This document shows, piece by piece, positions 19,484 through 46,794 of a DNA stretch of 64,000 bases. The DNA comes from Pelosinus fermentans DSM 17108 (GTDB lineage Bacteria > Bacillota > Negativicutes > DSM-13327): positions 1,740,001-1,804,000 of the forward strand of contig NZ_AKVN02000001.1 of the NCBI RefSeq assembly GCF_000271485.2, written 5' to 3'. A program made the position numbers and the translations under genes. The notes below the pieces were generated by a model. The model did not search any database, was not told the origin of the DNA, and saw only the letters and a list, made by a program, of their open reading frames with translations. Positions within the stretch are counted from its first letter, which is position 1. Each line of letters opens with the position of its first letter.

Positions 19484-19495
19484 GGAGCAATGGCA

Positions 19496-20770
19496 ATGAA
19501 GAAAATACCAAAAATATGCAGACAACTAATTTTTTTCGCCTGGGCTATGGTTTTCATGGCAGGGACTGCGATGGCTCAAGTAAGTATTTCAATGGATGTA
19601 AACCAGTCTACATGCCTTACTACCGGTGGGGAGATTACACGAGTTGCAATTGCCAATCCGGAAATTGCAGATATAACCATAATTTCCCAAGATGAGATGC
19701 TTGTTGTTGCAAAAAAAACGGGAACAACGACATTATACATATGGACAAATGATGGAATGCGTCAGGAATACGCAGTTAACATACGTGATCATGATACCCA
19801 AACCTCGATGGCAGTGGAAAAGATGATCGGCTATGCAGGGGTTGACGTAGAAAAGATAGGCAATAAGGTTTTGCTAAAAGGCAAAGTCAAAAATCAGCTG
19901 GAAAAAAGCCGTGCAGAAAAAATAGCAGAAATGTATGGTGAAAAGGTTGTTAATTTGCTGGAAATGACCCATCCTGATCAAATTCAGATTGAAGCGAAAA
20001 TCTTGGAGATTTCCACAGACAAAGTGAAAAAATTAGGCATACAGTATGCTAATGCTTCCGATATTGATACAGACAGCGGAATCGTAACAATCGGGCAAAC
20101 CGGTATGTTTGGCTTCGGACAGACCTTTTCCAATTCCCGTGATTCATCCAAGTCAAAGATGGGCGGTTATGCCGATATCAATGCAACGCTCCAGGCATTA
20201 ATCACAAACGGTGATGCCCAAATTCTGTCCCAGCCAAGTATGGTTACCATGAGTGGCGAAAAAGCAAATATTCTTATCGGTGGGGAAATTCCAATTCCAA
20301 TGAGTAATTCCGATGGGCAGATTACTGTAGAATGGCGGGAATACGGAATTAAACTTAATATTGAGCCAAGTGTTGATATAGACAATAAGATCACAAGTAA
20401 GGTGAATGCTGAAGTGAGTACACTTGACAGCTCTTCAGCGGCGGCGATTAATCTGAGCAGCGGCTTGTCGATACCGGCTCTGCGCTCACGCAAAGCAGAA
20501 ACGGTTATTCACCTGTCGTCAGGCAGCACCATGGCGATTGGCGGACTTCTCAGTTCGGAAGAAGGCAAACAAGTTTCAAAAGTTCCATTTCTGGGTGATA
20601 TTCCTATCTTAGGCAAGTTTTTCCGCAGTACGGCTACAAGTAAGGAAAAAAAGGAAATTATTATATTAGTGACACCAACGCTGGTAGATGAGACAACACC
20701 GATCAACATGTCAGATGAAATGAAGAAGCTGCTGAAAGGATCAAAAGTAGAGGAAACAGATATAAAGTAA
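19496..20770 (+). CDS. cpaC: Tad/Flp pilus outer-membrane secretin CpaC (RcpA)
   Basis: A 424-residue secretin. A signal peptide (MKKIPKICRQ ... GTAMAQ) precedes an N0-type pilus domain, a BON-like segment, and the C-terminal secretin core with DINATLQALITNGDAQILSQPS, GEIPIPM, YGIKLNIEP and SGSTMAIGGLLSSEE ... VPFLGDIPILGKFF. It forms the outer-membrane channel for the Flp pilus, which shows that this cell has an outer membrane. ATG 19496 is preferred over ATG 19490 because AAGGAG then has an 8-base spacing. Confidence 0.95.
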   Translation: MKKIPKICRQLIFFAWAMVFMAGTAMAQVSISMDVNQSTCLTTGGEITRVAIANPEIADITIISQDEMLVVAKKTGTTTLYIWTNDGMRQEYAVNIRDHDTQTSMAVEKMIGYAGVDVEKIGNKVLLKGKVKNQLEKSRAEKIAEMYGEKVVNLLEMTHPDQIQIEAKILEISTDKVKKLGIQYANASDIDTDSGIVTIGQTGMFGFGQTFSNSRDSSKSKMGGYADINATLQALITNGDAQILSQPSMVTMSGEKANILIGGEIPIPMSNSDGQITVEWREYGIKLNIEPSVDIDNKITSKVNAEVSTLDSSSAAAINLSSGLSIPALRSRKAETVIHLSSGSTMAIGGLLSSEEGKQVSKVPFLGDIPILGKFFRSTATSKEKKEIIILVTPTLVDETTPINMSDEMKKLLKGSKVEETDIK

Positions 20771-20779
20771 AGATAAAGC

Positions 20780-21616
20780 GTGGTGAAGCAAAAGGTGGAA
20801 GAAGAAATCAGAAGCGGTATCATCATGACGGTATTTAGTACCGCATCTGCTGTTGGAAAAACGCTGCTGAGTGTTAATATGGCAGCTGAACTGGCGAGAA
20901 GCGGCTACAAAGTCTGCGTGGTAGATCTGGATTTACAGTTTGGCGATATCTGCAATTATTTGCATTTGTCTCCCCAAAAGACGATTTATGACGCTCACAA
21001 GGCGGCTGAAAATACTGTAGGCCAGTTGGATTACGGTGAATACATGACACCTTATGAATATGAAGATACAGTTTTTTCCGTATTGGCAGCACCACTAAAA
21101 ATGGAAGAGGCATATAACATTCCGACTCAGGCTGTGATTGAAGTGCTTGCTGGAATTCGTGGGGAATATGATTATGTGGTGCTTGATACGACAGCTACGT
21201 TTAGTGATCTGAATTTGGCAGTGATGGATTTGAGTACCATGATCACGTTTGTCGGAATTGTGGATTTTATTCCTACGATTAAGAACATGAAAGTTGGCTA
21301 TGATACCATGCGCAGTATCGGCTATGAAAAAAATAAAATTCGGTTTGTTCTAAATCGCAGCAATTCCAAAACCCATATTGAACTGCAGGATGTTGAGCAG
21401 CTATTGGAAGAGCGCTTTTACCATATCTTGCCCAATGATTTTCTAACTGCCATTGATTCTATTCATCAGGGAATTCCCTTGGTCATTAATGATGAAGAGA
21501 CAGTGTTAAGCAGGGGAATGCAGGAACTGATTGAGAAATATACAAATCGTGCACGGCAAAGAAGCAGCAGGAAAAATGCCTCATTATCATCTTGGGTAAA
21601 GCGGTTATTTAAATAA
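20780..21616 (+). CDS. TadZ/CpaE-like ATPase, first of two
   Basis: A 278-residue MinD/ParA-fold protein without a receiver domain. The P-loop is STASAVGKTLLS: it keeps GKT but lacks the signature Lys of the deviant Walker A (KGGxGKT). A DLDLQFGD block follows, and YVVLDTTATF replaces the usual DxxP switch. Such atypical ATPases position Tad machinery at the pole. GTG 20780 has only a weak ribosome binding site, so translation may depend on the preceding secretin gene. A second, fuller CpaE follows directly. Confidence 0.82.
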   Translation: MVKQKVEEEIRSGIIMTVFSTASAVGKTLLSVNMAAELARSGYKVCVVDLDLQFGDICNYLHLSPQKTIYDAHKAAENTVGQLDYGEYMTPYEYEDTVFSVLAAPLKMEEAYNIPTQAVIEVLAGIRGEYDYVVLDTTATFSDLNLAVMDLSTMITFVGIVDFIPTIKNMKVGYDTMRSIGYEKNKIRFVLNRSNSKTHIELQDVEQLLEERFYHILPNDFLTAIDSIHQGIPLVINDEETVLSRGMQELIEKYTNRARQRSSRKNASLSSWVKRLFK

Positions 21617-21639
21617 TAAAGGGAAAGGAGGAAATAGCC

Positions 21640-22761
21640 ATGCCGGAATATCGTGTCCTGCTGATTGAACAGAATCGTATTATGATGGAGCGTTTATCTA
21701 GTGTAGTGCGAAACACAAAGAATTTTCAGCTTGTTTCCAGAGCCATGGATGCGCGGGAAGCTTTAGGACAAGGCGGTGTTTTTGTCCCCAATCTGATTTT
21801 ATTAGATATTGATGCCCAGGAGAGTATGCAGCTTGTACGTGAATTTGTGCGTGCATTTCCCCAAGCGGGGATACTGGCCTTGAGTAGCCAATGGAATGCC
21901 CAGGCGGCCAGTACCATTGTCAAGGCAGGGGCCAAAGGGTATTTAATCAAGCCCTTTACAAGTGAAGAACTAATTGCCGCCATTAATACCTTTGGTAACA
22001 GTGGCATGGGGATGATTAGCGAAGTAATGACCTTTTTCAGTCCTAAAGGAAAAAGCGGCAAAACGACTTTGATTGCTAATTTGGGGATGGCTCTGGCACA
22101 AAAAAGCGGACAGAATGTGGCCATTATTGATGCCGATTTACAGTTCGGAGATATGGCAGTGTTTTTTAATCTCGATCCTCAAAGTACGATTGTGGAAGCA
22201 ACGCGGGATATTAAGTTCTTGTCGCCTATTTCCCTCAATTCTTATTTCATGCCTATAGCCGAGCATGTCAGGGTGCTTTGTGGTACAAAACGCCCCGAAT
22301 TTGCTGAAGATGTAAGTCCGAAAGCCTTTACTGATATGATCAGCATGGCCCGCAGTTTGTTTCGCTATATTTTAGTTGATGTCCCATCAGCTTTTAATCC
22401 CATTTCCGTTGCCGCTGCCGAAGCATCTGAGCGGGTTTATCTTGTTTCGATGATCAGTGGAGGTTATGAAGGTAAGCACATGCGGCAGGCGTTGGAGATT
22501 TTTAAAGCCTGGCCGGATTATGAGACAAAAGTAAAGACCATTTTTACAAGGGTTGAGCCATGTGATATACAAAAGCAGCAGCAATTAGAAACGCTGATCG
22601 AATATCCTGTATGCAGCATCCTGCCCAATGAATACCTGCTTGTTTCCGAAGCGGCTAATAATGGAAGAATGGCAGTGGATATCAAACCCGAATCACCTCT
22701 GGCCCGAAGTATTGATCTGCTGGCCGCTCAAATTTGCGGCAGACCGCATAAGGTGGGATAA
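21640..22761 (+). CDS. cpaE: CpaE/TadZ: receiver-like domain plus MinD-type ATPase
   Basis: A 373-residue protein. Residues 1-120 form a response-regulator-like domain: the candidate phosphoacceptor is Asp56 (LILLDID) and the Lys is in YLIKPF, but the acidic pair is reduced (LLIEQN), so phosphorylation is doubtful. Residues about 130-370 form a MinD-type ATPase with a canonical SPKGKSGKTTL loop and IDADLQFGD. It localises the pilus machine. AAAGGAGGAAATAGCC precedes ATG. Confidence 0.9.
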   Translation: MPEYRVLLIEQNRIMMERLSSVVRNTKNFQLVSRAMDAREALGQGGVFVPNLILLDIDAQESMQLVREFVRAFPQAGILALSSQWNAQAASTIVKAGAKGYLIKPFTSEELIAAINTFGNSGMGMISEVMTFFSPKGKSGKTTLIANLGMALAQKSGQNVAIIDADLQFGDMAVFFNLDPQSTIVEATRDIKFLSPISLNSYFMPIAEHVRVLCGTKRPEFAEDVSPKAFTDMISMARSLFRYILVDVPSAFNPISVAAAEASERVYLVSMISGGYEGKHMRQALEIFKAWPDYETKVKTIFTRVEPCDIQKQQQLETLIEYPVCSILPNEYLLVSEAANNGRMAVDIKPESPLARSIDLLAAQICGRPHKVG

Positions 22762-22764
22762 ATC

Positions 22765-23724
22765 ATGCTGATCGTAGCCTTACTCAGCGGCATGCTGGTA
22801 TTTATCATTTTCCTAGTCTTAATTGAATACTTCGGTAGAGGAAAAACCCATATCACTCGCAAAGTTCTGCGTTATACAGAAGATGCAAGGGATATGAACG
22901 ATGTCGAGAAGAAAAATGACCATGTTGAAAAATTCATGAAGTTTATCCGGTATTTAGGCTTGAAAGTCCGTGGGGCACCTCAGGCAAAAAGTCTTGAAGT
23001 CAAGATGCAGCAGGCGGGTTTTCCCTTGCTGGGATCGGAGTTTCTTGCTCTTGTTGGTGTTGCAGTTCTCTCTGCAGGCATTCTTGGAATGATGCTGACT
23101 ATGAAAGTGCTCTATGCCATGGCCTTTGGTATACTGACAGGATTGGGATGCTTTCTGTATCTGAATATCCGAATTGCCAATCGGCAGAAGGAGTTTAGCA
23201 ATCAGCTGGGTGATGTGCTGATCATGATGTCTAATGCCATGCGTTCCGGTTTCAGTTTTATGCAGGCTATGGATTTGATTGCTAAAGAGATGAAACCGCC
23301 GGTTTCTGTGGAGTTCTTTAAAACCATAGCGGAAATCCGCCTGGGGGCAGATACAGAAACGGCTTTGCTTAATATGGGGAAACGGGTGCAAAGCTCAGAT
23401 CTGGATCTTGCTGTTACCGCCGTTCTTATTCAGCGTCAGGTTGGCGGTAACCTGGCTCAAATCCTGGATACCATTGCCGGAACCATTAATGAACGAATTA
23501 AGATGAAACAGGAAATCAAAACCCTGACAGCCCAGGGACGTCTTTCCGGCTGGGTGCTGGCAGCGTTGCCCTTTGTGATTGCAATCTTTGCTTCTATTGC
23601 AAGTCCAGGATATATGCGGCCATTTATTGATGAGCCGATAGGGCGCGTGATGTTGGCAAGTGCACTTATTTCTGAGCTGATAGGTTTTTTGATTATACGT
23701 AAAATTGTCAATCTTGATGTCTAA
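22765..23724 (+). CDS. tadB: Flp pilus inner-membrane platform protein TadB
   Basis: A 319-residue protein with a T2SSF domain: helices near residues 1-20, about 90-130 and 255-315, and the cytoplasmic block QLGDVLIMMSNAMRSGFSFMQAMD typical of TadB. It pairs with TadC (25883-26827), from which it is separated here by flp, the TadE-like gene and tadA. It begins 3 nt after cpaE. Confidence 0.9.
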   Translation: MLIVALLSGMLVFIIFLVLIEYFGRGKTHITRKVLRYTEDARDMNDVEKKNDHVEKFMKFIRYLGLKVRGAPQAKSLEVKMQQAGFPLLGSEFLALVGVAVLSAGILGMMLTMKVLYAMAFGILTGLGCFLYLNIRIANRQKEFSNQLGDVLIMMSNAMRSGFSFMQAMDLIAKEMKPPVSVEFFKTIAEIRLGADTETALLNMGKRVQSSDLDLAVTAVLIQRQVGGNLAQILDTIAGTINERIKMKQEIKTLTAQGRLSGWVLAALPFVIAIFASIASPGYMRPFIDEPIGRVMLASALISELIGFLIIRKIVNLDV

Positions 23725-28786: not shown

Positions 28787-29073
28787 TCGTTAGTATGTTT
28801 GATTATACAAAGCATTTCATTAGCGCATGCATTTTTTTATGGTTGATAAATAGCAGTTTCTTTTTGTGAGAACTGCTCAAATATTGAATCAGAGTAGTAT
28901 TTAAAAATTCAAAATGCAATCACTTGAGTAATGGATAACATTTCTACTTTGCATGACTATATACTTATGGTAACCTGTTATTGTCGTCTAGAAAAGTTCA
29001 TATATTGTAGATATAAAATTATTGTATTATAAAGACTAAAACAATTTTAATTACCTGAAATTGTGCACTAATT

Positions 29074-29108
29074 CCAGGTTGCAATTGCAACTTGGTAATT
29101 TTTTTATT
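29074..29108 (+). terminator. Terminator-like hairpin in the leader of the envelope operon
   Basis: CCAGGTTGCAA pairs with TTGCAACTTGG (one G-T) and is followed by TAATTTTTTTATTT. It is 155 nt before the outer-membrane gene, so it could be an attenuator or the end of a small RNA. Confidence 0.5.
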
Positions 29109-29262: not shown

Positions 29263-30522
29263 GTGAAAAAAAAATTTGGATTATTGTTTGCAATGGCAAC
29301 TGTAATCAATATGGCTACAGGGAACCATTTTGATGGTGAGCCAAATGGGAACGTGGTACATGCTTCAACAAAAGCCATGGATATGAATGAAGTTGATCCT
29401 AATTCTACTGCTGTGTTGCAAGGAAATCCTGAAAAATTGGAAGCTGAAATTACGCAGCTCACAACGGAAATCATAGTACATACAGAGAGCAATGCCATCG
29501 GTATTGACAAGAAAACAACGTTTCTTAGGAATAATGCTGATATTGAATCTAAAGCAACGAGTAGACTTAACTATGCTACTGATGCTGACCATACATCATT
29601 TCTTAATACAGGTTATATTGATCAGGAAACCTATACAGCTCTCATAGATGAATTGATGCACGTGGGGATGCGAAGTAAGCATTCGGACAACAAGGTAAAT
29701 TTTGATGGGGAAATTCGTTATCATTATGCATCTAACAATGGTTCCGAGCGCTGGGATCGGGATTCATCCGGAATTCGTATATATCTTGGGGCGGATGCTG
29801 TACTTAATAAGGATTGGCATGCTTATGGTGTGTTGGAAAGTAAACAGAGTTTAAGGAATTATAATAATGAATTTAAGCTTTCACGTTTATATGTGGTAGG
29901 AAAAGTTGGTACATCCACAGTAACGGCTGGTTCTTTTGGTTATTTAATGGCAGAAGGAAATATTTATGATAGCGGCTTTGAAGGGATTCAAATTGATTTT
30001 GGAGGACCGGTACAATACAGGCTGAGCTACGGAGAAACCAATGATACAAAAGAAACAGCGATTGCCACAGCACGGTATGAGGATTTTGATTATAACCTAG
30101 AGGCTGGCGTGTATCATTATCAGAGGGATGACAGCAAGCAAAACACGATTTGGACGATTGGTGGAAATTATAATTTCAGTAATTTCAGCATAGGAGCCAT
30201 GGCTTTAGGCTCGAGTTTAAAAGATAGTAAGGGAAATAGCAATGGTTATGTATTGAGCCTTAGCTATGGAGAGCTAAAATCATGGAGACCGGGCACTTAT
30301 GAGATAGTTGCTAAATCTTATAACCAGCCGGCAGGTACGTATATTGCTCATGGGATGAATGGTATAGGAAGTTCAATGCAGGGTTTTAAAGGCTATGGAG
30401 TGGGAATAAACTATACGCTTAAAGAAAACTTTGTCGCAGGTATAGAACATTACAAACTGACAGATAGAGTTTCTGAAGCCAAAGGTGACACTTGGTGGAG
30501 CCACTTAACGTATTATTTTTAA
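29263..30522 (+). CDS. Outer-membrane beta-barrel (porin-like) protein
   Basis: A 419-residue secreted protein starting at GTG (GGTGGTGAGTTAGTAA before it). A short basic, hydrophobic start is the likely signal peptide. From about residue 130 alternating polar/hydrophobic strands dominate (GEIRYHYASN, RIYLGADAV, WTIGGNYNFSNFSIGAMAL), and the chain ends HLTYYF, with the C-terminal Phe used by the BAM machine. It heads the polysaccharide operon, where an export porin would be expected. No lipoprotein box or S-layer homology domain is seen. Confidence 0.75.
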   Translation: MKKKFGLLFAMATVINMATGNHFDGEPNGNVVHASTKAMDMNEVDPNSTAVLQGNPEKLEAEITQLTTEIIVHTESNAIGIDKKTTFLRNNADIESKATSRLNYATDADHTSFLNTGYIDQETYTALIDELMHVGMRSKHSDNKVNFDGEIRYHYASNNGSERWDRDSSGIRIYLGADAVLNKDWHAYGVLESKQSLRNYNNEFKLSRLYVVGKVGTSTVTAGSFGYLMAEGNIYDSGFEGIQIDFGGPVQYRLSYGETNDTKETAIATARYEDFDYNLEAGVYHYQRDDSKQNTIWTIGGNYNFSNFSIGAMALGSSLKDSKGNSNGYVLSLSYGELKSWRPGTYEIVAKSYNQPAGTYIAHGMNGIGSSMQGFKGYGVGINYTLKENFVAGIEHYKLTDRVSEAKGDTWWSHLTYYF

Positions 30523-30550
30523 ATGAATAGGTAAGTGAGATGAAATAGGT

Positions 30551-31873
30551 ATGGAAACAATTGAAAGAATTCGAGCCAAAAAAGATTTTTTAGCAGTTGT
30601 CGGACTTGGTTATGTAGGTTTGCCGCTTGCGGTTGCTTTTGCTGAAAAAGTTAAAACCCTGGGATTTGATATTAACCAAGAAAAAATTAGTATCTACCAA
30701 AAGGGAATCGATCCTACTAATGAAATTGGTGATGAAAAAATCCAAAATTCAACCTTAGAATTTACCACAGATCCAACAAGACTAAAAGAAGCCAAGTTTA
30801 TTATTGTAGCTGTTCCAACGCCTGTCAATGGTGATAAAACGCCTAATTTGGTACCGATTATCAATGCCAGTAAAATAATAGGAAGAAATTTATCCCAAGG
30901 CAGCATAATTGTCTTTGAATCCACAGTATATCCAGGAGTTACAGAAGACGTTTGCGGTCCTATTTTAGAAAAGGAGTCAGGTTTAGTATGCGGCAAAGAT
31001 TTTAAAATCGGATATTCTCCTGAACGGATTAATCCTGGAGATAGGGTGCATACACTTGAAAATATTCAAAAAATCGTTGCGGGTATGGATGAAGAAACAG
31101 TGGAGAACATTGCGGCTGTCTATGAGCTGATTATTCATGCAGGTGTTTATCGAGCACCCAGTATCAAAGTAGCAGAGGCAGCAAAATTGGCTGAAAACGC
31201 CCAAAGAGATATTAATATTGCTTTTATGAATGAATTGGCAATGGCATTTGATCGAATGGGAATCAGTACCAAAGAAGTGATTGATGCCATGAATACCAAA
31301 TGGAATGCGTTAGGCTTTTATCCTGGATTAGTGGGTGGTCATTGTATTGGTGTCGATCCCTATTATTTTATTTATCAGGCCAAAATGCTGGGCTATTACT
31401 CACAGATTATTGCCGCTGGCAGAAAAGTCAATGATAATATGGCGATTTTTGTCACCGACAATATTATAAAAAAAATGATTCAATCCAATATAAATGTAAA
31501 AAAATCTAACATTTACATTATGGGAATCACTTTCAAAGAAAATTGTCCGGATATGCGCAATTCAAAGGCGGTAGATGTTTGTAAACATCTTGCCACATAT
31601 GGAATCAAAGTAAAGGTGGTAGACCCTATTGCTGATAAAGCAGAATTTAAAAAAGAATTTGATATGGATTTAGTAGATCTAAAAGATGTTCGAAACGCTG
31701 ATTGTCTGGTATTTTTAGTAGCGCACCAACAATTTAAGGATTTGCGGACAACGGATTTTAGAAAGTTCTTTAAATCGCAAAAGTTACAAACAAAAGATGT
31801 CTTTATTGATATTAAAAGTATATTTGAGCAAAAGGCCATAGAAGAAGAGGGATATTCTTACTGGAGTCTTTAA
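30551..31873 (+). CDS. UDP-N-acetyl-hexosamine 6-dehydrogenase (VipA/TviB/WbpA-like)
   Basis: A 440-residue nucleotide-sugar dehydrogenase. The N-terminal Rossmann motif is VVGLGYVGLPLAVAFA; VAVPTPVNGDKTPNL, ESTVYPGVTE and GYSPERINPGD follow, with the catalytic Cys in GGHCIGVDPYYF. The C-terminal third has GITFKENCPDMRNSK. These features place it with the dehydrogenases that turn UDP-GalNAc/GlcNAc-type sugars into uronic acids rather than with UDP-glucose dehydrogenase. It would supply an acidic amino sugar for the polymer made by the neighbouring genes. Exact sugar not determined. Confidence 0.9.
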   Translation: METIERIRAKKDFLAVVGLGYVGLPLAVAFAEKVKTLGFDINQEKISIYQKGIDPTNEIGDEKIQNSTLEFTTDPTRLKEAKFIIVAVPTPVNGDKTPNLVPIINASKIIGRNLSQGSIIVFESTVYPGVTEDVCGPILEKESGLVCGKDFKIGYSPERINPGDRVHTLENIQKIVAGMDEETVENIAAVYELIIHAGVYRAPSIKVAEAAKLAENAQRDINIAFMNELAMAFDRMGISTKEVIDAMNTKWNALGFYPGLVGGHCIGVDPYYFIYQAKMLGYYSQIIAAGRKVNDNMAIFVTDNIIKKMIQSNINVKKSNIYIMGITFKENCPDMRNSKAVDVCKHLATYGIKVKVVDPIADKAEFKKEFDMDLVDLKDVRNADCLVFLVAHQQFKDLRTTDFRKFFKSQKLQTKDVFIDIKSIFEQKAIEEEGYSYWSL

Positions 31874-31891
31874 TGATAGGAGGTGATATAC

Positions 31892-34516
31892 GTGAAAAAT
31901 AAAAAAATGATATTAGTACTGGTTCTATTTATCAGTATTTGCCTCATTGGGATATTTTTCTTTAAAAACATTTTTATTAAGCCGACTGGCGGTGACTATC
32001 GCAATATTAGGGATTTAGATAGTTCTTATCATGCTGAGGCAGAAATTGAAGAAGCGTTAGCAAAGATAAAAAATAGTCAAGAAAAAGCAACTGTAATCAT
32101 GGGCAGAAATAATGGTCAGCGTCAGATTGCTTTGACTTTTGATGGCCTAACAGATCGCACTAGCGTGCAGCAGATTTTAGACCTATTAAAAAAATATAAT
32201 ATGAAAGCAACATTTTTTGTAGATGGGATGCAGACAGCTGAAGATCCGCAAACAGTAGTAAATATTAAAAAGGCAGGGCATAAAATAGAAAACTATTCAT
32301 TTTCCGGCATTAATAAAATGGAGACTCTGCCTATGGAAAGAGTAGTGAAAGATTTCAGCCGGGCACAAAAAATCATCAAAGTGATCACCGATCAAGGGCC
32401 AAATCTTTTAAAATGCAATGATACTAAATATACGGATCAATTGTTACAAGCAGCAAAAGCCTGCGGCTTTAATAGTGTAGTGAAAACTGATGTCTTTTTG
32501 AATGTGAAACAAATGAATTCTCTTGTGGCAGCAGACACATTTGTCGACAAGCTTAAACCGGGAAGCATCGTTTCTGTTAAACTAAAATCGAATGCTGAAC
32601 CGATTACAAATGAACCAGGAAAAACGGATTTACAACCGGCAATTGACAAACAGCCCGGATTAAAAGAACTGTTACAAGAAGCAGACTTGAGAGAAAAGGA
32701 AACGATTGAAGCAGTAGAAAAACTTTTAATTGCTCTTAGCAAGGCAAATTATACTGCAGTCTATGTGGAAGATTTCGCAGCTGACGATCGTATTCAAAAG
32801 TCAGCAAAAACCGCTTTGCTTGACTCCTCTTTTCTGGTAAAAGCAGCTTCTTACCTGCAAGAACAAAGTACATCTTTATTTACCTTACCAACAGCTTTTG
32901 CAGCAGACATTGCGGATAATCATATAAAAGAAATTAAGATCATTTCTACTATAGAACCTGCGATTCCCTATACCTTCGGAGGATTAACCAATGAAATTGT
33001 GGTGAATGATGTACTCGGAAGATTGCATGATCTAGGGATAAAAGCAACTTTCTTTGTGGCGGAAGTAGAAATGAAAAAATATCCTGAAACGCTGCGGAGA
33101 ATCATCGAAAATGGACACGAAATTGGGATTGCCATAAGACCGAAAGATGGAGAAACCTTTGAGGAAACCCGAAAATCGATTATGAGTGCTCGCAAGATAT
33201 TACATGAACAATTTGGCGTGGACACAAACTTGATAAAGCAACCATGGGGTGCTGTATCGGATTTAACAAAAGAAGCCACTTCTAGCTTAGAATGCAAATT
33301 GATCGGTCAATCTGTCAACGTTGTGCAAAGTAAACACAAAGATTACACTTCAGCTGATCAAGTTATGGCAGAGATCTTCGGCAAATCCATGTTTTCTTTA
33401 GGTAGGGGACAAATTGTACATTTTAGAATGGATTATTATACAAATGATCGATTGATTGGTGATTTGGTTGAAACCATTAAACAACGTAAAGTGGATAACA
33501 TTGCCTATGTAACATCTTATGATAATCCTGCGAGCAATCCGGATAATAATTCGCAGTATACCATTAAGCCAGTAGGAGAAATTCTCAATCACGATAATTT
33601 TATTTATCAGTATCCGGTAGATTCGGGTAATGTTCCGACCCGCATAAGAAATCACTGGCATGGACTAAAGATTGATCAGCATAATTTCCTGGTTGAGACC
33701 TCTAAACGCTATATAGGGAACAGAACTGTTACTTACGAAGACCGTATGCTCGGTTTTTCTAAAATGGATATCCGCCGTCTGGATAAGAGTGGATTCATAC
33801 ACACCAAAGATAAGGTTATTTTCCTTACCTTTGATGACTGGGGAACAGATGCAGCAATCAATAAAATACTATATGTCTTGCGTAAGCATAATGTTCCAGG
33901 GACATTTTTTATTCTCACGAACAATGTACTCAACAACCCCAATCTGCTCCGAACCATTGCTATGCAGGGTCATGATATCGGAGGCCACTCTGATAAACAT
34001 AAGCCAATGGTAATTAATGATCCCAAAACTGGTAAGCTAACCCAAACCCAAGGTAAAGAAGAATATACTAAAGAACTTTCGACATCATATCAAAAATTGC
34101 AAGATGTTATAGGAGATGTGACGATCAACGGCAAACCTGCTTTGACCGGATTTTTCCGTCCACCACAGTTGGCAATCAGCAAAATGGGCGTTGAAGCGTT
34201 GTTTGAAACAGGTTATGAATATATTATTAATGGTTCATGCAGCACAAATGATTATAAAGCTGAAAATGTTCCTCAACTTATAAGAACAATTGAAGATGGA
34301 GTATATACAAAAGAAGGTGAAGTAAAAAAGGGTGCTATCTTAGTCATGCATATGTCAGATACCGCTGCCTATACTGCTGCGGCCTTAGATATACTGCTGA
34401 CTGCAAATGAAGCCAAAGCAGATTCAGATCCTTCCAAATTTAAAGTAGGCAGGTTATCAGACTATTTAGTTGATGGCTATTCGCAAATCAACCGAAAAAT
34501 TGCTGAATTGAAATAG
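31892..34516 (+). CDS. Membrane-anchored polysaccharide deacetylase with three NodB-like domains
   Basis: An 874-residue protein with an N-terminal signal anchor (MILVLVLFISICLIGIFFF). Three NodB-like units are seen. Unit 1 starts near residue 80 (IALTFDGLTDR), unit 2 near 359 (YTFGGLTNEI), and unit 3 near 645 (IFLTFDDWGTD). Only unit 3 has the Asp pair, a GGHSDKHKP zinc motif and FFRPP; units 1 and 2 lack the His-x3-His pair and are probably binding or structural. It likely removes acetyl groups from an extracytoplasmic hexosamine polymer. GTG 31892 follows TAGGAGGTGATATAC. Confidence 0.85.
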   Translation: MKNKKMILVLVLFISICLIGIFFFKNIFIKPTGGDYRNIRDLDSSYHAEAEIEEALAKIKNSQEKATVIMGRNNGQRQIALTFDGLTDRTSVQQILDLLKKYNMKATFFVDGMQTAEDPQTVVNIKKAGHKIENYSFSGINKMETLPMERVVKDFSRAQKIIKVITDQGPNLLKCNDTKYTDQLLQAAKACGFNSVVKTDVFLNVKQMNSLVAADTFVDKLKPGSIVSVKLKSNAEPITNEPGKTDLQPAIDKQPGLKELLQEADLREKETIEAVEKLLIALSKANYTAVYVEDFAADDRIQKSAKTALLDSSFLVKAASYLQEQSTSLFTLPTAFAADIADNHIKEIKIISTIEPAIPYTFGGLTNEIVVNDVLGRLHDLGIKATFFVAEVEMKKYPETLRRIIENGHEIGIAIRPKDGETFEETRKSIMSARKILHEQFGVDTNLIKQPWGAVSDLTKEATSSLECKLIGQSVNVVQSKHKDYTSADQVMAEIFGKSMFSLGRGQIVHFRMDYYTNDRLIGDLVETIKQRKVDNIAYVTSYDNPASNPDNNSQYTIKPVGEILNHDNFIYQYPVDSGNVPTRIRNHWHGLKIDQHNFLVETSKRYIGNRTVTYEDRMLGFSKMDIRRLDKSGFIHTKDKVIFLTFDDWGTDAAINKILYVLRKHNVPGTFFILTNNVLNNPNLLRTIAMQGHDIGGHSDKHKPMVINDPKTGKLTQTQGKEEYTKELSTSYQKLQDVIGDVTINGKPALTGFFRPPQLAISKMGVEALFETGYEYIINGSCSTNDYKAENVPQLIRTIEDGVYTKEGEVKKGAILVMHMSDTAAYTAAALDILLTANEAKADSDPSKFKVGRLSDYLVDGYSQINRKIAELK

Positions 34517-34582
34517 TGATAATCATGTTTGACGCAGCAAAAGTATAAATCATCTTTTAATGAAATGACGAAGTGATTTAAT

Positions 34583-34609
34583 CTATGCTGCTTTAATCAG
34601 CAGCATAGA
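34583..34609 (+). repeat. Intercistronic hairpin before the glycosyltransferase
   Basis: CTATGCTGC pairs perfectly with GCAGCATAG around TTTAATCAG-type loop bases, ending 19 nt before the start. No T-run follows, so it may tune mRNA stability or translation. Confidence 0.45.
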
Positions 34610-34628
34610 AATGGCAAGGAAGTGGATA

Positions 34629-36452
34629 ATGGATAAGATAAAAACAGAAGAGGATATTTTACTTGTTGCTAAACCTGATCGCAGGCTGATTTCTAAAGTA
34701 CCTGATAAAGAACAGTTGCGTACCAATGTAGACAGACGCCGCGTTAAGGGGATTGAGGATACTAACGATATAGCAGCTCTTGCCGAAAATGAAAAAATGG
34801 GCAGACGGTACTTGGTAAATTATGATGTTTCCATCCAATATGTTTCTTCTGGAAAAAAAGTAACATGTCTGGGAAAAGGCGTTGATATATCAACTACCGG
34901 TATGTTGCTTGAGGTTTCGTCAGAAGTGGCCTTAGATTTGAGCTTGGCATCCAAAATCAAACTCAAGTTTGTCATAACGCCTGGCACGATGCCGGAAGGT
35001 TATGAAATGAAAGTTGATATTGCTGCCCAATATATTCGCTTTGGCAAAAATGCAGAAGGGAAAACTCTGTGCGGAGTAGCATTTTTAGAATCACTTGCAC
35101 AATATGCAGCAAAGAAGAAAAATTGGTATATGCTCTCTGCAGCTTCATTTTTCCTATTCTTTATCACTGCCTGCATTCTTCTGATGAGAGCAGAAAGCGT
35201 ACTTTATTTTAAATTTAACAAAATATTGTATATGTACAGCATTATTGCAGCTAGCTTTTTGCTGACCCGATACCTGTTTGGTTCTTTTTATCGCTCTGTT
35301 CCCATAGATAAAGACTTTACACCCGGAGTCACAATTATTGTTCCTTGCTTCAACGAGGAACAGTGGATACAAAGAACGATTTTAGGCTGCATTAATCAAG
35401 ATTATCCCATCAACAAACTAGAAGTGATTGTTGTAGATGATTGCTCTAATGATAAATCCGTTGAGAAAATTAAAGAAATGATAGAAGAACTAAAGAGCAA
35501 GGAACAACGCTATGATGTTGAAAACAGGCTTCATTATATTGTTCAGGCAACAAATGCAGGTAAACGGGAGGCATTGGCAAAAGGAGCACTAATGGCACAG
35601 CATGAATTAATTGTGTTTGTTGATTCGGACAGCTTTTTAGATCCTTTTGCTATTCGAAATATTGTCCAGCCCTTTAAAGATACAAAAATGGGCGGCGTTT
35701 CCGGCAGAACCGATGTTGCCAACACCTATACCAATGTACTTACGAAAATGCAGGCTGTACGCTATTACATTGCCTTTCGTATCATGAAGGCTGCAGAAAG
35801 CTATTTTGATGCGGTCACCTGTTTATCTGGTCCTCTCTCATGTTACAGAAAAGATTTGCTTCTTAAATATATGGATGATTGGCTAAATCAACGATTTTTT
35901 GGGGAGAAAGCTACATTCGGCGATGACCGAAGCATGACAAATCTTATACTAAGAGAAAATCGTACGGGTTATCAGGATTCTGCGATATGTAATACCATTG
36001 TACCTAATACCTATAAGGTTTTTTTGAAACAACAGATGCGCTGGAAACGCTCATGGCTTCGAGAATCCCTAATTGCAGCCGGATTTATGTGGAAAAAGGA
36101 ACCATTTATGGCCTTATCTTTTTATATGGGCGTACTTGTACCCCTCTTGGCACCGATTATTGTAATTTATAATTTAATTTACATTCCAATTACACATCGC
36201 GTGTTTCCTTTAACCTTTATGATCGGTATTCTTTTAATGGCTTTGCTCATGAGTATGGCTCAATTGTTTCTAAGAAGAAGCTCAACATGGATTTACGGAT
36301 TGTGGTTTTGCTTATATTATGAGGCCGTACTTTTGTGGCAAATGCCTATTGCTTGGGTTACCTTCTGGAAGACGACATGGGGAACTCGCATGACTCCAGC
36401 GGATCTTGCAGAGCTGTTAAAGAAGAATCGCAAAAAGCAAGAAAGGGCATAA
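34629..36452 (+). CDS. PilZ domain fused to a processive family 2 glycosyltransferase
   Basis: A 607-residue protein. An N-terminal PilZ-like domain (about 55-155) has GRRYLVNY and the D-x-S-x-x-G motif DISTTG at about 86-91, which bind c-di-GMP. Two helices follow (about 168-185 and 205-220), then a GT2 domain: VTIIVPCFNEE, VIVVDDCSNDKS, DSDS, the FGDDRSM acid site, and QQMRWKRSW (QxxRW, the processive synthase mark). More membrane helices lie at the C-terminus. It resembles hyaluronan/PgaC-type synthases. AAGGAAG favours ATG 34629 over ATG 34611. Confidence 0.9.
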   Translation: MDKIKTEEDILLVAKPDRRLISKVPDKEQLRTNVDRRRVKGIEDTNDIAALAENEKMGRRYLVNYDVSIQYVSSGKKVTCLGKGVDISTTGMLLEVSSEVALDLSLASKIKLKFVITPGTMPEGYEMKVDIAAQYIRFGKNAEGKTLCGVAFLESLAQYAAKKKNWYMLSAASFFLFFITACILLMRAESVLYFKFNKILYMYSIIAASFLLTRYLFGSFYRSVPIDKDFTPGVTIIVPCFNEEQWIQRTILGCINQDYPINKLEVIVVDDCSNDKSVEKIKEMIEELKSKEQRYDVENRLHYIVQATNAGKREALAKGALMAQHELIVFVDSDSFLDPFAIRNIVQPFKDTKMGGVSGRTDVANTYTNVLTKMQAVRYYIAFRIMKAAESYFDAVTCLSGPLSCYRKDLLLKYMDDWLNQRFFGEKATFGDDRSMTNLILRENRTGYQDSAICNTIVPNTYKVFLKQQMRWKRSWLRESLIAAGFMWKKEPFMALSFYMGVLVPLLAPIIVIYNLIYIPITHRVFPLTFMIGILLMALLMSMAQLFLRRSSTWIYGLWFCLYYEAVLLWQMPIAWVTFWKTTWGTRMTPADLAELLKKNRKKQERA

Positions 36453-36453
36453 G

Positions 36454-38325
36454 ATGATGACAATAGCAAATGAAAAATTTACTGCCCAAAAAGATAGAAG
36501 AAAAAAAATACGTGTAGTGATGCAGATTATAATCCTCCTTACACTGCTTGCTATTTGCATCACCGCATTATTTACGTTAAAAGCGTATCATCCGTATACA
36601 TCGCAAAATACAAACGTTTCCGGAGATAAGGGCTTTGTTGCCCTTGCCTATTTCGGTGTAGAGCGAAACGGTAATCAAAATCTAATCGGGGCGGGACGTT
36701 TATATGGACATTTGCAGGCATTAAAAGATTTGGGTTATGTAACGGTCACACAAGAGGATGTTTTAAACTACTACCAAACAGGTAGAAATCTGCCGGAAAA
36801 ATCTCTCTTTTTGATTTTTGAAGATGGCAGAAGAGATACAGCTATTTTTTCACAAAAAGTTTTAGAAGATTTGAATTTTAAAGCAACCATGCTGACATAT
36901 CCGGAAAAATTTAAAGGAAAAGATACGAAATTTTTAATGCCGAATGAGCTGAAAGAACTTGAGAAATCAACTTTTTGGGAAATGGGTACCAATGGATACC
37001 GACTGGCATTCATTAACGTATTTGACAGATACGATAATTACCTTGGAGAATTAGATCCATTGAAACACGCTCGCGTTGCGCCTTATTTGGGACGTAAATA
37101 TAATCACTATTTGATGGATTATATTCGTGATGAATATGGTATTCCGAAAGAAAGTTATAACAGGATGAAAGAGCGGATCTCTTATGATTATGAAGCTGTA
37201 AGAGATAGTTATACAAAGTACATTGGGTACGTACCTGGAATGTACATCTTGATGCACTCCAATACAGGAAGCTTTGGCAATAATGATAAAGTAAGTGCTG
37301 TGAATGAATCTTGGATTAAAACATTATTTAAAATGAACTTTAATAGGGAAGGTTTTTCCTTTAATCAGAGAAACAGCAGCCTTTATGACTTAACCAGGAT
37401 GCAGCCCCAGGCCTATTGGTACACCAATCATTTGTTGATGCGTATCAAATATGATATCAATCAAGACTTGGAATTTGTCAAAGGCGATTTGAACAAACAA
37501 AAAGCATGGGAAACCCTTAAAGGGGCTTTGGAAATTCAAGAGGAGACGATGATCCTAACCTCTTTGCCAAAAGACAAAGGTTTATTGCGCTTAAAAGATA
37601 GTAACGAATTTAAAGACCTCAAGCTTTCTGTAAGAATGAAGGGAAACAAACTTGGTCTGCAAAAGATATACCTCAGGGCAGATGAAAATTTAAACAGATC
37701 CTTGTCTGTATATATTCTCAATAATGTTCTATATGTTACGGAAAAAAACGACGGTGCCGAAAGGGAACTGTTTAAATTAAGCTTAGATAAGCATGATGGT
37801 AAAGAAAGGTTATCCATTCCTGAAGATAAAAAAGCGGCTGAAATGCGAGAACTGGAAACCTTCGTAAAATATGCCGATTCCGCTGAAACAGCAAAGATCT
37901 ATGCAGAACGATTGAGAGATAAGAATATGGAGAATGCTCCTGCCGTGACAGAAGGTGCCGAGGAATATATACCGGACCTTAGTGTTAATGCAAAAGGTGA
38001 CCGTGTGCTGTCACTATCTCTCAAGAAAAATCGGATCAGCATTATGATGGATGGAAAAGATGCTGCTATTGATTTACCAGTATCTGAACCAAAGGCAGGC
38101 TCTGTTTATCTGGAAACAGCATGGGGCGGTTATGGCTGGAGTCAAAGAAATTTGGCCGATGATGTGTATGATGGTGTGTTTGAAAAGCTTATGATCACGG
38201 AAAATACGGGAGCAGAAACCGAAAAAATTTTATTTGATAGTCGACTGCAAGGATTTGATGCTTTCAAATTTAAAGTAGGGCAGCTGTGGGAAGCCCTTAT
38301 AAATTGGTTTATTATAAAATTGTAA
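36454..38325 (+). CDS. Membrane protein with NodB-like domain and C-terminal lectin-like domain
   Basis: A 623-residue protein. A membrane helix spans about residues 23-43. Residues about 60-300 resemble a polysaccharide deacetylase/TIM-barrel fold (FVALAYFGVE, LFLIFEDGRRDT, NFKATMLTYPEKF), with no clear zinc triad. The C-terminal part from about residue 340 has short beta strands and ends with a pattern like a LamG/concanavalin fold (GSVYLETAWGGYGWSQRNLADDVYDG split in two). It starts 1 nt after the glycosyltransferase stop, so it is translationally coupled. Probable role is polymer binding or modification; family naming is tentative. Confidence 0.7.
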   Translation: MMTIANEKFTAQKDRRKKIRVVMQIIILLTLLAICITALFTLKAYHPYTSQNTNVSGDKGFVALAYFGVERNGNQNLIGAGRLYGHLQALKDLGYVTVTQEDVLNYYQTGRNLPEKSLFLIFEDGRRDTAIFSQKVLEDLNFKATMLTYPEKFKGKDTKFLMPNELKELEKSTFWEMGTNGYRLAFINVFDRYDNYLGELDPLKHARVAPYLGRKYNHYLMDYIRDEYGIPKESYNRMKERISYDYEAVRDSYTKYIGYVPGMYILMHSNTGSFGNNDKVSAVNESWIKTLFKMNFNREGFSFNQRNSSLYDLTRMQPQAYWYTNHLLMRIKYDINQDLEFVKGDLNKQKAWETLKGALEIQEETMILTSLPKDKGLLRLKDSNEFKDLKLSVRMKGNKLGLQKIYLRADENLNRSLSVYILNNVLYVTEKNDGAERELFKLSLDKHDGKERLSIPEDKKAAEMRELETFVKYADSAETAKIYAERLRDKNMENAPAVTEGAEEYIPDLSVNAKGDRVLSLSLKKNRISIMMDGKDAAIDLPVSEPKAGSVYLETAWGGYGWSQRNLADDVYDGVFEKLMITENTGAETEKILFDSRLQGFDAFKFKVGQLWEALINWFIIKL

Positions 38326-38346
38326 TCAATAGGAGGAAGTGAATGC

Positions 38347-39381
38347 ATGAGCAGCATAGGTTATAAAATTATCAAAACAGTTATTTTTGCATCGGTTTTT
38401 ATTATCTTGATTGGCTGCAATTATGATAATCAATCTGCTGTTAATGCAGTCGCAAAAGAACCAACAAAAATATCAGCATGGTTAGCCTATTGGGACTTAG
38501 GTGCCGGGGAAAAAGATTTAGAAAGAGTTGGAAAGAAAATAGAGAAACTTTCTTATTTTGGCGCATATTTCGATAGTAATGATCGCCTTTTCATACCCAA
38601 AGAGCTCAGTAATAAAAAAATCGAATTGCAAAAGAAAAAGGGAAAATATGAAACCTACCTTACTTTTGTCAATGATAAGCAGAATTCTGATGGATCGGCT
38701 GTGATGAAAGATACAGAAGTCCTTCGCAGGTTATTTTCCGATGATGCGTCTATGGAGAAACATATTGATGAAATCATTACATTGACATTGCAGGGTGGAT
38801 ATGATGGTATTGAAATCGATTATGAAAGAATATGGAAGGACGAAACCATTGGACAGACTTTTTTGCAATTTGCGGATAGATTGTATGCAAAAACCCTGAA
38901 AAATAATTTAAAACTAAGGATTGTACTGGAACCGAGTACACCCTTTTCTGCTATTGATTTTGTCAAGGGTCCGGAATATGTCGTTATGCTCTATAACCTT
39001 TTTGGATTGCATAGTACACCCGGTCCTAAAGCCAATAAGGAGTTTATTCAAAAAACAATAACACAAATGGAAGCTTTGTCGGGTGAGAAATCGGTAGCAT
39101 TTTCAACTGGCGGATGTCTATGGGGCGATAACGGTGAAAAAAGATTCCTGACAGAAGTGGAAGCAAAGACCCTGGCTGCTATATATGATAGTGAAACCCG
39201 AAGAGATGAAGAAAGCCAATGCGTAGTTTTTGATTATAAAAGTGAAGGCGTATCGTATCAAGTCTGGTATGCGGATGTGAAAACGTTAAATTACTGGATG
39301 AGGATTGCGAAAGAGCAGGGGGCTAATCATATCAGTCTGTGGCGTCTAGGTGAGAATGTGGATATCGACAAAATAAGATAA
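38347..39381 (+). CDS. GH18-like glycoside hydrolase lipoprotein
   Basis: A 344-residue protein with a lipoprotein signal (VFIILIGC, Cys about residue 23). The TIM-barrel catalytic signature is YDGIEIDYERIW, matching the DxxDxDxE-like motif of family 18 and close relatives with Glu as acid. WLAYWDLG and ISLWRLGEN are other typical barrel elements. It would cut the polymer or peptidoglycan at the cell surface. It ends the operon; the original terminator beyond it is split by an IS. AGGAGG sits 10 nt before ATG 38347. Confidence 0.82.
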   Translation: MSSIGYKIIKTVIFASVFIILIGCNYDNQSAVNAVAKEPTKISAWLAYWDLGAGEKDLERVGKKIEKLSYFGAYFDSNDRLFIPKELSNKKIELQKKKGKYETYLTFVNDKQNSDGSAVMKDTEVLRRLFSDDASMEKHIDEIITLTLQGGYDGIEIDYERIWKDETIGQTFLQFADRLYAKTLKNNLKLRIVLEPSTPFSAIDFVKGPEYVVMLYNLFGLHSTPGPKANKEFIQKTITQMEALSGEKSVAFSTGGCLWGDNGEKRFLTEVEAKTLAAIYDSETRRDEESQCVVFDYKSEGVSYQVWYADVKTLNYWMRIAKEQGANHISLWRLGENVDIDKIR

Positions 39382-39411: not shown

Positions 39412-39526
39412 GAGGGCACTGAAAAAGTCTCTTTGAAGCCAAAAAGGTATAGTCCTTCAAGAAAACAGAGGAGACTGTACCTTTTTTGCTGTATAATGAA
39501 GGTATTAAAGGGAGCAGGTGAGTCAA

Positions 39527-40110
39527 ATGATTCAACAACAACAATCTATGGTTTTAAGTCCCTATATAGAGCTCTATAACTTGATTATTTCCAAAGATAA
39601 TATATTGCGGCAAATCAACGAACTTGTAGATTTCTCTTTTGTGTATGAGGAATTGAAAGAGCACTATTGTCTGGATAACGGCAGAAATGCGATTGACCCG
39701 ATCCGGATGCGGGCATGTATGTATGCAAGGCCGGTCACATGGCAATCTGTAAAGCGCGGCAAGGGAAAAAAAGCGTTGGGAGAAACCAAGCTGATACGTA
39801 CTATTTCGATATTGAGCTTTGCAAACGATGCCCGTTGAAAGAAGGGTGCTACAAAGAGGGAGCCAAAAGCAAAACTTACTCGGTGAGTATCAAATCTGGT
39901 GAGCACACCGGACAAATGGCGTTCCAGGAAAGCGAGTACTTCAAGGAAAAGGCGAAGGAGCGCTACAAAATTGAAGCAAAGAACAGTGAGCTCAAACACA
40001 GACACGGGTATGACACAGCGTCATCTTCGGGTCTTGTTGGCATGGAGTTACAAGGGGCAATGGCGATCTTTACTGTGAATATAAAGAGAATATTGAAACT
40101 GATAAAGTAA
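39527..40110 (+). pseudogene. Transposase with internal deletion, IS1182-type
   Basis: The N-terminal piece (ELYNLIISKDNILRQINELV ... NAIDPIRM) is typical of IS1182-type transposases. It runs directly, out of frame, into the C-terminal piece: AGHMAICKARQGKKSVG, a zinc-finger-like CKRCPLKEGCYKEG, KAKERYKIEAKNSELKHRHG and a terminal helix. The DDE catalytic core between them, several hundred bases, has been lost. Confidence 0.85.
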
Positions 40111-42104: not shown

Positions 42105-44274
<2,170 letters not shown>

Positions 44275-45023: not shown

Positions 45024-46574
45024 TTAACTACTTATTAATGCAATCCGAATAGAAGCATTGACGTTAGTTTGTGTTCCTCCTGCTAACGTTTGCAAGGTAA
45101 CTGCAGCAGCACTAGTATGATTTCTAACAGTTAATACATCACCAGCAGCAGCGGTGATAATTAACGTACCTGGATTAGGTTGCGTACCAGCCCCAGAGCC
45201 ATAGGTACTGCCGGCAACAGGAGCGCCGTTTTGGAAGAGGGTGAACTGGTTTGGCTCTACACCTGCAACTATGAATGAGATTTCATAATCACCAGCACTA
45301 CCAAGTACAATAGAAGTTGTTCCTGGTGCATGGGTAATGGCGCCTACAATAACACCGTTATCGCTAAATGTTATATCTGCTTCTAGTGCAACAACTTGAG
45401 CAGCTAAATTATAGACGTAGGCGTATTCCGATAAGCCAAGAAGTCCGGTCGCGCCAGTAGCACCCGTAGCTCCCGTTGTGCCAGTAGCGCCAGTAGCTCC
45501 AGCATCGCCAGCAGCACCAGTAGCTCCAGCATCGCCAGTAGCTCCAGTAGCGCCAGTAGCGCCTGCAGCACCAGCATCGCCAGTAGCTCCAGTAGGACCG
45601 GTAGCTCCAGTAGCGCCAGCAGCGCCAGTAGCGCCAGTAGCGCCAGTAGCTCCAGCATCGCCAGTAGCGCCAGTAGCTCCAGCATCGCCAGTAGCTCCAG
45701 TAGCGCCAGTAGCGCCTGCAGCACCAGCATCGCCAGTAGCTCCAGTAGGGCCGGTAGCTCCAGTAGCGCCAGCAGCACCAGTAGGGCCGGTAGCGCCAGT
45801 AGTTCCAGTAGCGCCAGTAGCTCCAGCATCGCCAGTAGCTCCAAGAGCTCCAGTAGCTCCAGTAGCTCCAGTAGCTCCAGTAGCTCCAGTAGCGCCAGTA
45901 GCTCCAGTAGCTCCAGTAGCTCCAGTAGCGCCAGTAGCACCAGAATCGCCAGTAGCTCCAGTAGCGCCAGTAGCTCCAGCATCGCCAGTAGCTCCAAGAG
46001 CTCCAGTAGCGCCAGTAGCTCCAGTAGCTCCAGTAGCGCCAGTAGCACCAGCATCGCCAGTAGCTCCAGTAGCGCCGGTAGCTCCAGCATCGCCAGTAGC
46101 TCCAGTAGCTCCAGTAGCGCCGGTAGCTCCAGTAGCGCCGCCAGCAGCACCAGTAGGGCCAGCAGCACCAGTAGGGCCGGTAGCTCCAGTAGGGCCGATA
46201 GCACCAGTAGGGCCGATAGCACCAGTAGGGCCGATAGCACCAGTAGGGCCGATAGCACCAGTAGGGCCGATAGCACCAGTAGGGCCGGTAGCTCCAGTAG
46301 GGCCGATAGCACCAGTAGGGCCGATAGCACCAGTAGGGCCGATAGCACCAGTAGGGCCGGTAGCTCCAGTAGGGCCGATAGCTCCAGTAGGGCCGGTAGC
46401 TCCAGTGGGGCCGATAGCACCAGTAGGGCCGGTAGCTCCAGTGGGGCCAGTAGCTCCAGTGGGGCCAGTAGGCTTAGTAGTATCGATACAACAGCAGTTT
46501 GCTGGAGATGTGCATAGTGGGAACTTAGGAACTATAGGTGAGAATCTAGTCATTGATGTATCGTCAAAGGACAT
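45024..46574 (-). CDS. BclA-like collagen-repeat spore-surface protein 2
   Basis: A 516-residue protein. A short N-terminal leader ([16 protein letters not shown] ... [10 protein letters not shown]) has a Cys cluster. From residue 36 to about 380 there are Gly-X-Y triplets: first [12 protein letters not shown] units, then GAT/GDA units. The last 135 residues are a BclA-type C-terminal domain ([43 protein letters not shown]) that forms trimeric jelly-roll heads. Such proteins make hair-like exosporium filaments. ATG 46574 follows AAAGGAGGTCAATCTTATT; the frame upstream crosses the promoter and is not coding. Confidence 0.9.
45430..46470. repeat. Coding tandem repeats of collagen gene 2
   Basis: Gly-X-Y coding units; 46160-46460 is very regular in 18-bp units (GPTGAI type), while 45480-46130 is a mixture with 27/36-bp blocks. 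The regularity suggests recent expansion by slippage. Confidence 0.9.
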
Positions 46575-46613
46575 AATAAGATTGACCTCCTTTAGTAAAA
46601 TATTAACTCTTAT

Positions 46614-46644
46614 TATACTATTTAAATAGTGATAACATTGTGTC
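46614..46644 (-). promoter_or_regulatory. Shared 31-nt sigma-K-like promoter, copy 3 (collagen 2)
   Basis: Minus strand GACACA ... ATCACTATTTA then AATAGTATA (one base off CATANNNTA), 40 nt upstream of ATG 46574. Confidence 0.55.
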
Positions 46645-46794
46645 GTCATTATGTAAGCATAACAACAAAAGATTAGCTCCTATTTAAAATTGGATATATA
46701 TCCATCAGAGGACTTTACAACAGGATTCAAATTTCTTAGTATTTATAATAGGCCTAACTTCAAGAAGTAGTGCTGTGATTTGTCAAAAGTTTTT

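Follow-up and report, generated by a model that had tools for sequence, protein, structure and literature searches.

A run of six genes in a stretch of 64,000 nucleotides from Pelosinus fermentans DSM 17108 (the window), which an initial annotation made from the sequence alone had described as a cyclic di-GMP (c-di-GMP)-linked polysaccharide operon resembling a rearranged Pga system, shares parts with several described exopolysaccharide systems. In common with the Pga/Ica systems for poly-N-acetylglucosamine (PNAG), there is a family 2 glycosyltransferase (GT2) synthase, a domain of carbohydrate esterase family 4 (CE4) type, a hydrolase-type domain, an outer-membrane pore in diderms and a PgaB-like fold in the fifth protein; the operon departs from these systems by its PilZ domain on the synthase, a separate three-unit NodB protein, an OmpM-type barrel, a dehydrogenase and the lack of any match to PgaD, and also in that its PgaB-like domain is without a metal site and is joined to a lectin-like module, while the hydrolase-like protein is a chain of its own. 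The Bcs/Ccs cellulose systems likewise have PilZ and a GT2 with QxxRW on one chain, and BcsB, like the protein encoded next to the synthase here, is anchored in the membrane and has a carbohydrate-binding domain; however, the partner here is of PgaB type, and a deacetylase is present. Class I hyaluronan synthases are also processive GT2 enzymes and give the best PDB sequence match to the window synthase, and the Has operon has a gene for a UDP-sugar dehydrogenase, HasB, beside the synthase. These hyaluronan systems are not known to have a PilZ domain or a deacetylase, and the dehydrogenase here scores best against TviB (NCBIfam, 443 bits, below the cut-off of 592) rather than TuaD (146 bits). 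The PilZ domain is N-terminal here and C-terminal in BcsA (PMC8461298), and Ccs is a cellulose system with the GH5 enzyme CcsZ and O-acetylation genes (PMC7710045). The beta-glucan synthase RiGT2 of Romboutsia is a Gram-positive GT2 with the D,D,D,QxxRW residues and PilZ, but its PilZ is C-terminal, as in BcsA, and its product is a mixed-linkage glucan (PMC10374906). The Listeria Pss and Bacillus ydaJKLMN operons are Firmicutes exopolysaccharide operons activated by c-di-GMP, through the degenerate GGDEF receptors PssE and YdaK, in place of which PilZ sits on the synthase here; PssD is a BcsB orthologue (PMC4125290, PMC5422440). A Pfam search of the six window proteins found no GGDEF match at E-values up to 1. 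The gts operon of Lactobacillus acidophilus differs in pairing its GT2 with a degenerate EAL receptor.

The initial annotation had not recognized the operon as pga, pel, psl, bcs or alg, and it indeed maps to no described system that we found, qualifying neither as pga nor as Bcs. No description of it appeared among the titles and abstract openings listed from the open-access literature, and the main text of a survey of synthase-dependent operons (PMC7112194) mentions no Negativicutes, Selenomonas or Pelosinus. We judge it probable (roughly 0.7) that the operon encodes an exopolysaccharide machine that is synthase-dependent, is activated by c-di-GMP and belongs to no type that we have found described. 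The six intact open reading frames (ORFs) were confirmed in the order and on the strand first annotated, with tight intergenic gaps of 1–94 bp, and they are preceded by the remains of a riboswitch (positions are those of the window):

29003..29070, + strand: decayed c-di-GMP-I riboswitch aptamer (fossil), by alignment to intact Pelosinus aptamers
29074..29095, + strand: terminator-like hairpin of 9 base pairs followed by a T run, remnant of the riboswitch expression platform
29263..30522, + strand: BAR, outer-membrane 16-strand beta-barrel of OmpM fold, proposed polymer export porin (AlphaFold, fold comparison)
30551..31873, + strand: UGD, nucleotide-sugar 6-dehydrogenase, TviB-like (Pfam, NCBIfam, PDB sequences)
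31883..34516, + strand: NODB3, three NodB units (Pfam) and an N-terminal hydrophobic anchor (by eye)
34611..36452, + strand: PZGT, PilZ-GT2 processive synthase (GT2 profiles, conserved residues)
36454..38325, + strand: PSD, PgaB-like pseudo-deacetylase with a CBM66-like domain and long terminal helices (AlphaFold, folds)
38347..39381, + strand: GH18-like lipoprotein (PF00704, 3e-8; lipobox LIGC by eye)

Searching named genomes with the synthase gave 122 loci, of which the best 80, with 56–93% identity, were retained and 42 were not kept. The nearest synthases, those of P. fermentans JBW45 and P. propionicus, are 93% identical to that of the window, and the retained loci span Negativicutes, Clostridia and Bacilli, 44 of the 80 coming from Clostridia or Bacilli; the initial placement of the operon in a diderm Firmicute is too narrow. 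The same annotation had proposed a search for the PilZ-GT2 protein as a check on whether the genes stay together, and they do: among the testable loci, counted with a bias towards presence as those with short flanks were entered only when the gene was visible, the pseudo-deacetylase gene directly follows that of the synthase in all 79, the GH18 gene is downstream in 74 of 74 (including L136, where it lies ~4.8 kb past its neighbour), a NodB gene is near the synthase in 78 of 79 and the dehydrogenase is upstream in 51 of 67 (31/32 diderm, 9/24 Clostridia, 11/11 Bacilli). All 33 testable diderm loci have a barrel gene upstream and none of the 31 monoderm loci does, the diderm side including by hand assignment two contigs of metagenome-assembled genomes labelled Acholeplasmataceae, one of which has the barrel and both of which cluster with diderm synthases. 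These two contigs (L083 and L085) carry the Negativicutes version of the operon, and their metagenome bins are probably mislabelled. By profile, the barrel was found in none of 30 operon-bearing monoderm genomes vs. three of three diderm controls, and in six monoderm loci inspected ORF by ORF (Clostridium carboxidivorans, Brevibacillus and Lactobacillus equicursoris among them) the flanking ORFs match none of the six proteins.

Across 60 genomes of the window's class, strong matches to the synthase, the pseudo-deacetylase and the operon-type barrel coincide in 21 genomes (in one of which the barrel is in pieces, and in another, G026, the synthase, across contig ends) and are absent from the other 39. 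A tree made by a quick method from 78 of 81 synthases, three being omitted for length, placed the barrel-bearing synthases in a single starred group of 34 rows, the only two rows of which without a barrel are contigs starting within the NodB gene. Selenomonas-type loci have their NodB units divided, with one gene 5' of the synthase and another 3' of the GH18 gene. The arrangement far exceeds chance, and its core, conserved in Negativicutes, Clostridia and Bacilli, is a multi-unit NodB protein, a PilZ-GT2 synthase, a PgaB-like pseudo-deacetylase and a GH18-like lipoprotein.

The identification of the fourth protein as a PilZ-GT2 synthase with QxxRW agrees with its matches to GT2 profiles and with its conserved residues: D338, D340, D439, Q474, R477 and W478 (D, D, D, QxxRW) are invariant in the 78 synthases of the tree. 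In the PilZ motif DxSxxG, which reads DISTTG in the window, S94 and G97 are invariant in all 78 and the first residue is D in 70 and N in eight, which makes a c-di-GMP link on the synthase itself likely, as was first proposed. R24, R25, R37, R42, R43 and R66 of the N-terminal region are also invariant in the 78. The synthase scored only 34 bits against CelA (cut-off 699).

The fifth protein, PSD, like BAR matched no Pfam family. Its AlphaFold model (mean pLDDT 90) has a NodB domain of PgaB type (Z 22.5, rmsd 3.0, 245 residues aligned), a domain resembling CBM66 (Z 18.8, rmsd 2.4, 152 aligned) and a long helix at both ends, and in NCBIfam it weakly matches the N-terminus of PgaB (TIGR03938, 23 bits vs. 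a cut-off of 322). It had been described as a NodB-like/lectin-like membrane protein, and both folds were recovered; the HxxxH metal site is lost, however, with the first His replaced by Asn in 56 of 56 sequences and His at the second position in two of 56. As its metal histidines are replaced, we call it a pseudo-deacetylase. No BcsB family was matched in Pfam at E-values up to 0.01 by any of the 56 PSD partners. A similar loss is seen in NODB3: Pfam gives the three NodB stretches first noted, but the catalytic residues are confined to unit 3, where the pattern of catalytic D, metal D and HxxxH is kept in 47 of 50 long homologs (window included), while units 1 and 2 have the canonical pattern in 0 of 50 rows. 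NodB units 1 and 2 and the PgaB-like protein are without catalytic residues and yet conserved. The initial view that deacetylase and hydrolase are on separate chains holds for the hydrolase-like chain, with the amendment that intact deacetylase residues are found in NODB3, the PgaB-like protein being without its metal site. The GH18-like lipoprotein, also as first annotated, has by eye the motif DxxExDxE, not DxxDxDxE, of which the final D and E (D158 and E160) are the same in all 75 sequences compared.

UGD has three UDPG_MGDP_dh domains in Pfam, and the three PDB sequences closest to it are Cap5O and dehydrogenases of N-acetylhexosamine (HexNAc) type, which together with the TviB score are consistent with the UDP-N-acetylhexosamine-type dehydrogenase first proposed. 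As a universal core part, however, the dehydrogenase was rejected: 14 genomes have none in the fetched flank, of which five have a homolog of 56–61% identity elsewhere and nine only one of 36–38%.

AlphaFold predicted the outer-membrane barrel of the initial annotation as 16 strands spanning residues 145–418 (mean pLDDT 69.8; residues 1–140 are not confidently modelled). The best solved fold match is Veillonella OmpM1 (Z 26.2, rmsd 2.5, 272 aligned), the next non-OmpM porin scoring Z 20.7 among the 50 matches listed; AlgE, PgaA and BcsC are not among these 50, which has no bearing on their relation to BAR. The likeness to OmpM was also evident by hhalign, with 99.6% to a Pelosinus OmpM-like porin. 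BAR as a detectable PgaA homolog was rejected, since a profile comparison with a PgaA-like protein found no match (hhalign probability 1.3) and a PDB sequence search gave no match at E-values up to 1. The constriction of OmpM1 is formed by loops 3 and 7 (PMC10628300), and two stretches that rank among the best conserved in the operon barrels, near residues 229–241 and 353–379, may coincide with these two loops, as a strand count on the model suggests. As to the N-termini, Pfam gave no SLH match for 30 operon barrels, truncated to ≤430 residues, at E-values up to 0.01, or for the N-terminal portions of six at up to 0.1, but inspection by eye suggests SLH-like N-termini in barrels of Selenomonas type. 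Five Sporomusa loci have a barrel extended by a long N-terminal region, with Pfam TPRs in both of the two scanned, an architecture like that of PgaA and BcsC. Elsewhere in the window's own genome (L139, G000:C1:836000-851000), six OmpM-like porin genes stand in tandem, with N-termini that look SLH-like by eye.

On account of its presence in all testable diderm loci and its absence from the monoderm loci and genomes above, BAR looks like an envelope-specific export part; within our sample the barrel is restricted to diderms, and the polymer would leave through it. The absence of a barrel from monoderms is not new in itself, since the survey of synthase-dependent operons reports that Gram-positives have commonly lost the pore of other systems too (PMC7112194).

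In 18 relatives the operon is immediately preceded by a riboswitch of class c-di-GMP-I or -II, 17 of them detected by Rfam and one, Paenibacillus macerans, added by a model built from nine aptamers. Thirteen of the Rfam hits are c-di-GMP-I aptamers in Negativicutes, most of them in Sporomusaceae; two more of this class stand before the operon in Acetobacterium and Anaerocolumna, and c-di-GMP-II aptamers precede it in two Clostridium loci. The gap from aptamer to first gene, taken from the first possible start codon, is 18–207 bp in 17 of the 18 and 812 bp in one; inspection by eye shows a T run no more than 60 bases past the aptamer in 17 of the 18 loci (a poor one in L112), preceded by a hairpin in the eight leaders that were aligned. 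Rfam gave no adjacent aptamer in any Selenomonas- or Pectinatus-type locus scanned, and the model hits in Cohnella and Fontibacillus lie away from the operon. Two Cohnella loci (L131:5091-5298 and L129:219-426) have tandem c-di-GMP-I aptamers ~1.8 kb upstream, apparently before a different gene. In the Pelosinus relatives the 5' arm of the terminator overlaps the 3' end of the aptamer, a part that the model structure shows as paired, and for this reason we infer that the riboswitch acts as an ON switch. Control by c-di-GMP would be layered, with PilZ on the synthase and a riboswitch in the relatives.

The leader in the window aligns with the intact aptamers of three Pelosinus relatives with its conserved core lost; it has no Rfam c-di-GMP match (RF01051), although the relatives do, and it reached 10 bits (E-value 0.08) against model R1 with filters off. 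Its terminator hairpin is conserved with the relatives in position and sequence. Judged by this alignment, the leader is a regulatory fossil, with the aptamer core lost and the terminator kept, and the operon may be silenced or may use a promoter 3' of the terminator; promoter and terminator scans returned sites no commoner than in shuffles. GGDEF genes were found in 28 of 28 operon genomes tested. The 2.1 Mb genome of L. equicursoris (L121), in which the operon is also present, has 18 GGDEF matches.

In the exopolysaccharide machine that we propose, the PilZ-GT2 synthase would polymerize a HexNAc-rich chain, probably including some N-acetylhexosaminuronic acid supplied via the dehydrogenase, and would thread it through its own membrane domain. 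PSD, anchored by a helix at each end on the outer face, would guide the chain in a role which, by analogy, may be like that of BcsB. NodB unit 3 would deacetylate the polymer and the dead units 1 and 2 would bind it, and the GH18-like lipoprotein would trim or release the chain. In diderm Negativicutes the OmpM-type 16-strand porin would then carry the chain across the outer membrane, the monoderms doing without it.

Several observations weigh against this proposal. The Pfam PilZ match of the window synthase is sub-threshold (16.6 vs. 22.5 bits), and RxxxR is not present in its residues 1–110. The closest solved relative of BAR is a small-solute porin, which would fit general permeability too. 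GGDEF genes are common anyway, being found in eight of 14 control genomes, and of the 39 loci to which Rfam was applied, 17 have a c-di-GMP riboswitch next to the operon and 22 do not. One of eight Pelosinus genomes, G002 (89% complete), showed no synthase, pseudo-deacetylase or operon-type barrel. The dehydrogenase is missing from 15 of 24 testable Clostridia operons, and the acidic amino sugar first deduced from it is weaker as a statement on the whole family.

We also considered a divergent PNAG operon, in which the domains of a Pga/Ica system had been redistributed while the polymer stayed the same. The pseudo-deacetylase is PgaB-like by profile and fold and genes for a deacetylase, a hydrolase-like protein, a synthase and a porin-like protein are all there, but the PgaB-like domain is without HxxxH, none of the six proteins matches PgaD, and the synthase is closer in NCBIfam to NodC (183 bits) than to PgaC (118 bits vs. 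a cut-off of 422), both matches being far sub-threshold. A Pelosinus PgaC-like control scored 541 bits. In two Negativicutes genomes that we looked at, pgaABCD-like operons exist separately from the operon; one of them (L137) is in a Pelosinus genome, G006, that carries the operon too, and its PgaB, PgaC and PgaD are above the curated cut-offs, while its porin gene has PgaA as best family at a sub-threshold 103 vs. 367 bits. Because of this coexistence the operon is not pga, and the "rearranged Pga" of the initial annotation was rejected, on the scores of the synthase as well as on the OmpM fold of BAR and the intact deacetylase residues in NODB3; we consider a divergent PNAG operon unlikely. 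The same synthase scores, with NodC first in NCBIfam and hyaluronan synthases as the closest PDB chains, point towards a hyaluronan- or chitin-like beta-1,4 / beta-1,3 polymer of the wall or capsule, with the barrel serving only envelope maintenance. This seems improbable to us, as combined riboswitch and PilZ control suits a regulated, secreted matrix and the occurrence of the barrel tracks that of the synthase across the 60 genomes.

An ordinary nutrient porin that by chance stands ahead of the operon would account for the OmpM fold of BAR and for the tandem OmpM-like porins in the same genome. Five of these tandem porins score 76–115 bits against the barrel profile vs. 518 for the operon barrel, however, and are without the conserved loop motif TYxxHxMNG found in the operon barrels. 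Of the 21 genomes with the operon, 20 have an operon barrel scoring above 400 bits and one has it in two pieces, while the best score in operon-free genomes is 255; besides the complete linkage in testable diderm loci, the riboswitch in 13 loci is 5' of the barrel gene, not 3' of it. We find a chance neighbor of this kind quite unlikely, and return to the exopolysaccharide machine proposed above.

An evolutionary extension of that proposal is offered tentatively, at somewhat less than even odds: a single exopolysaccharide machine may span the monoderm/diderm divide with the same core (PilZ synthase, dead-PgaB/lectin guide, multi-unit deacetylase and hydrolase) and one added part, a house OmpM tether-porin turned into an export pore. 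The TPR fusion in Sporomusa would then be a convergence on PgaA and BcsC, and the decay of the riboswitch in the window would have left the operon with PilZ control only, or silenced. A widespread and apparently unnamed c-di-GMP-linked matrix system would be of interest in Firmicutes, where few matrix polymers are known, and the genera with the operon include relatives of Clostridium, Paenibacillus, Brevibacillus, Butyrivibrio, Lactobacillus and Selenomonas. The occurrence of the same core with and without an outer membrane makes two matters testable, namely what a synthase needs for passage of its product through the outer membrane and how a tether-porin could turn into an export pore. The conservation of dead deacetylase folds in polymer machinery suggests a general use of such folds in guiding polymers.

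Elsewhere in the window, an intact c-di-GMP-I riboswitch (18400-18483, + strand) lies just 5' of Tad/Flp pilus genes (18584-23724, + strand) for RcpC, a secretin, ATPases and T2SSF; this makes another output of c-di-GMP, ~11 kb 5' of the operon. Soon after the GH18 gene there is a transposase remnant (39518-40110, + strand) with DDE_Tnp_1_6 at 39715-40110. Further downstream are two genes for long collagen-like repeat proteins on the opposite strand: the product of 45024-46649 (- strand) has a Collagen match and one to BclA_C just under the cut-off, and that of 42184-44256 (- strand) is collagen-like by eye, with shadow ORFs in other frames.

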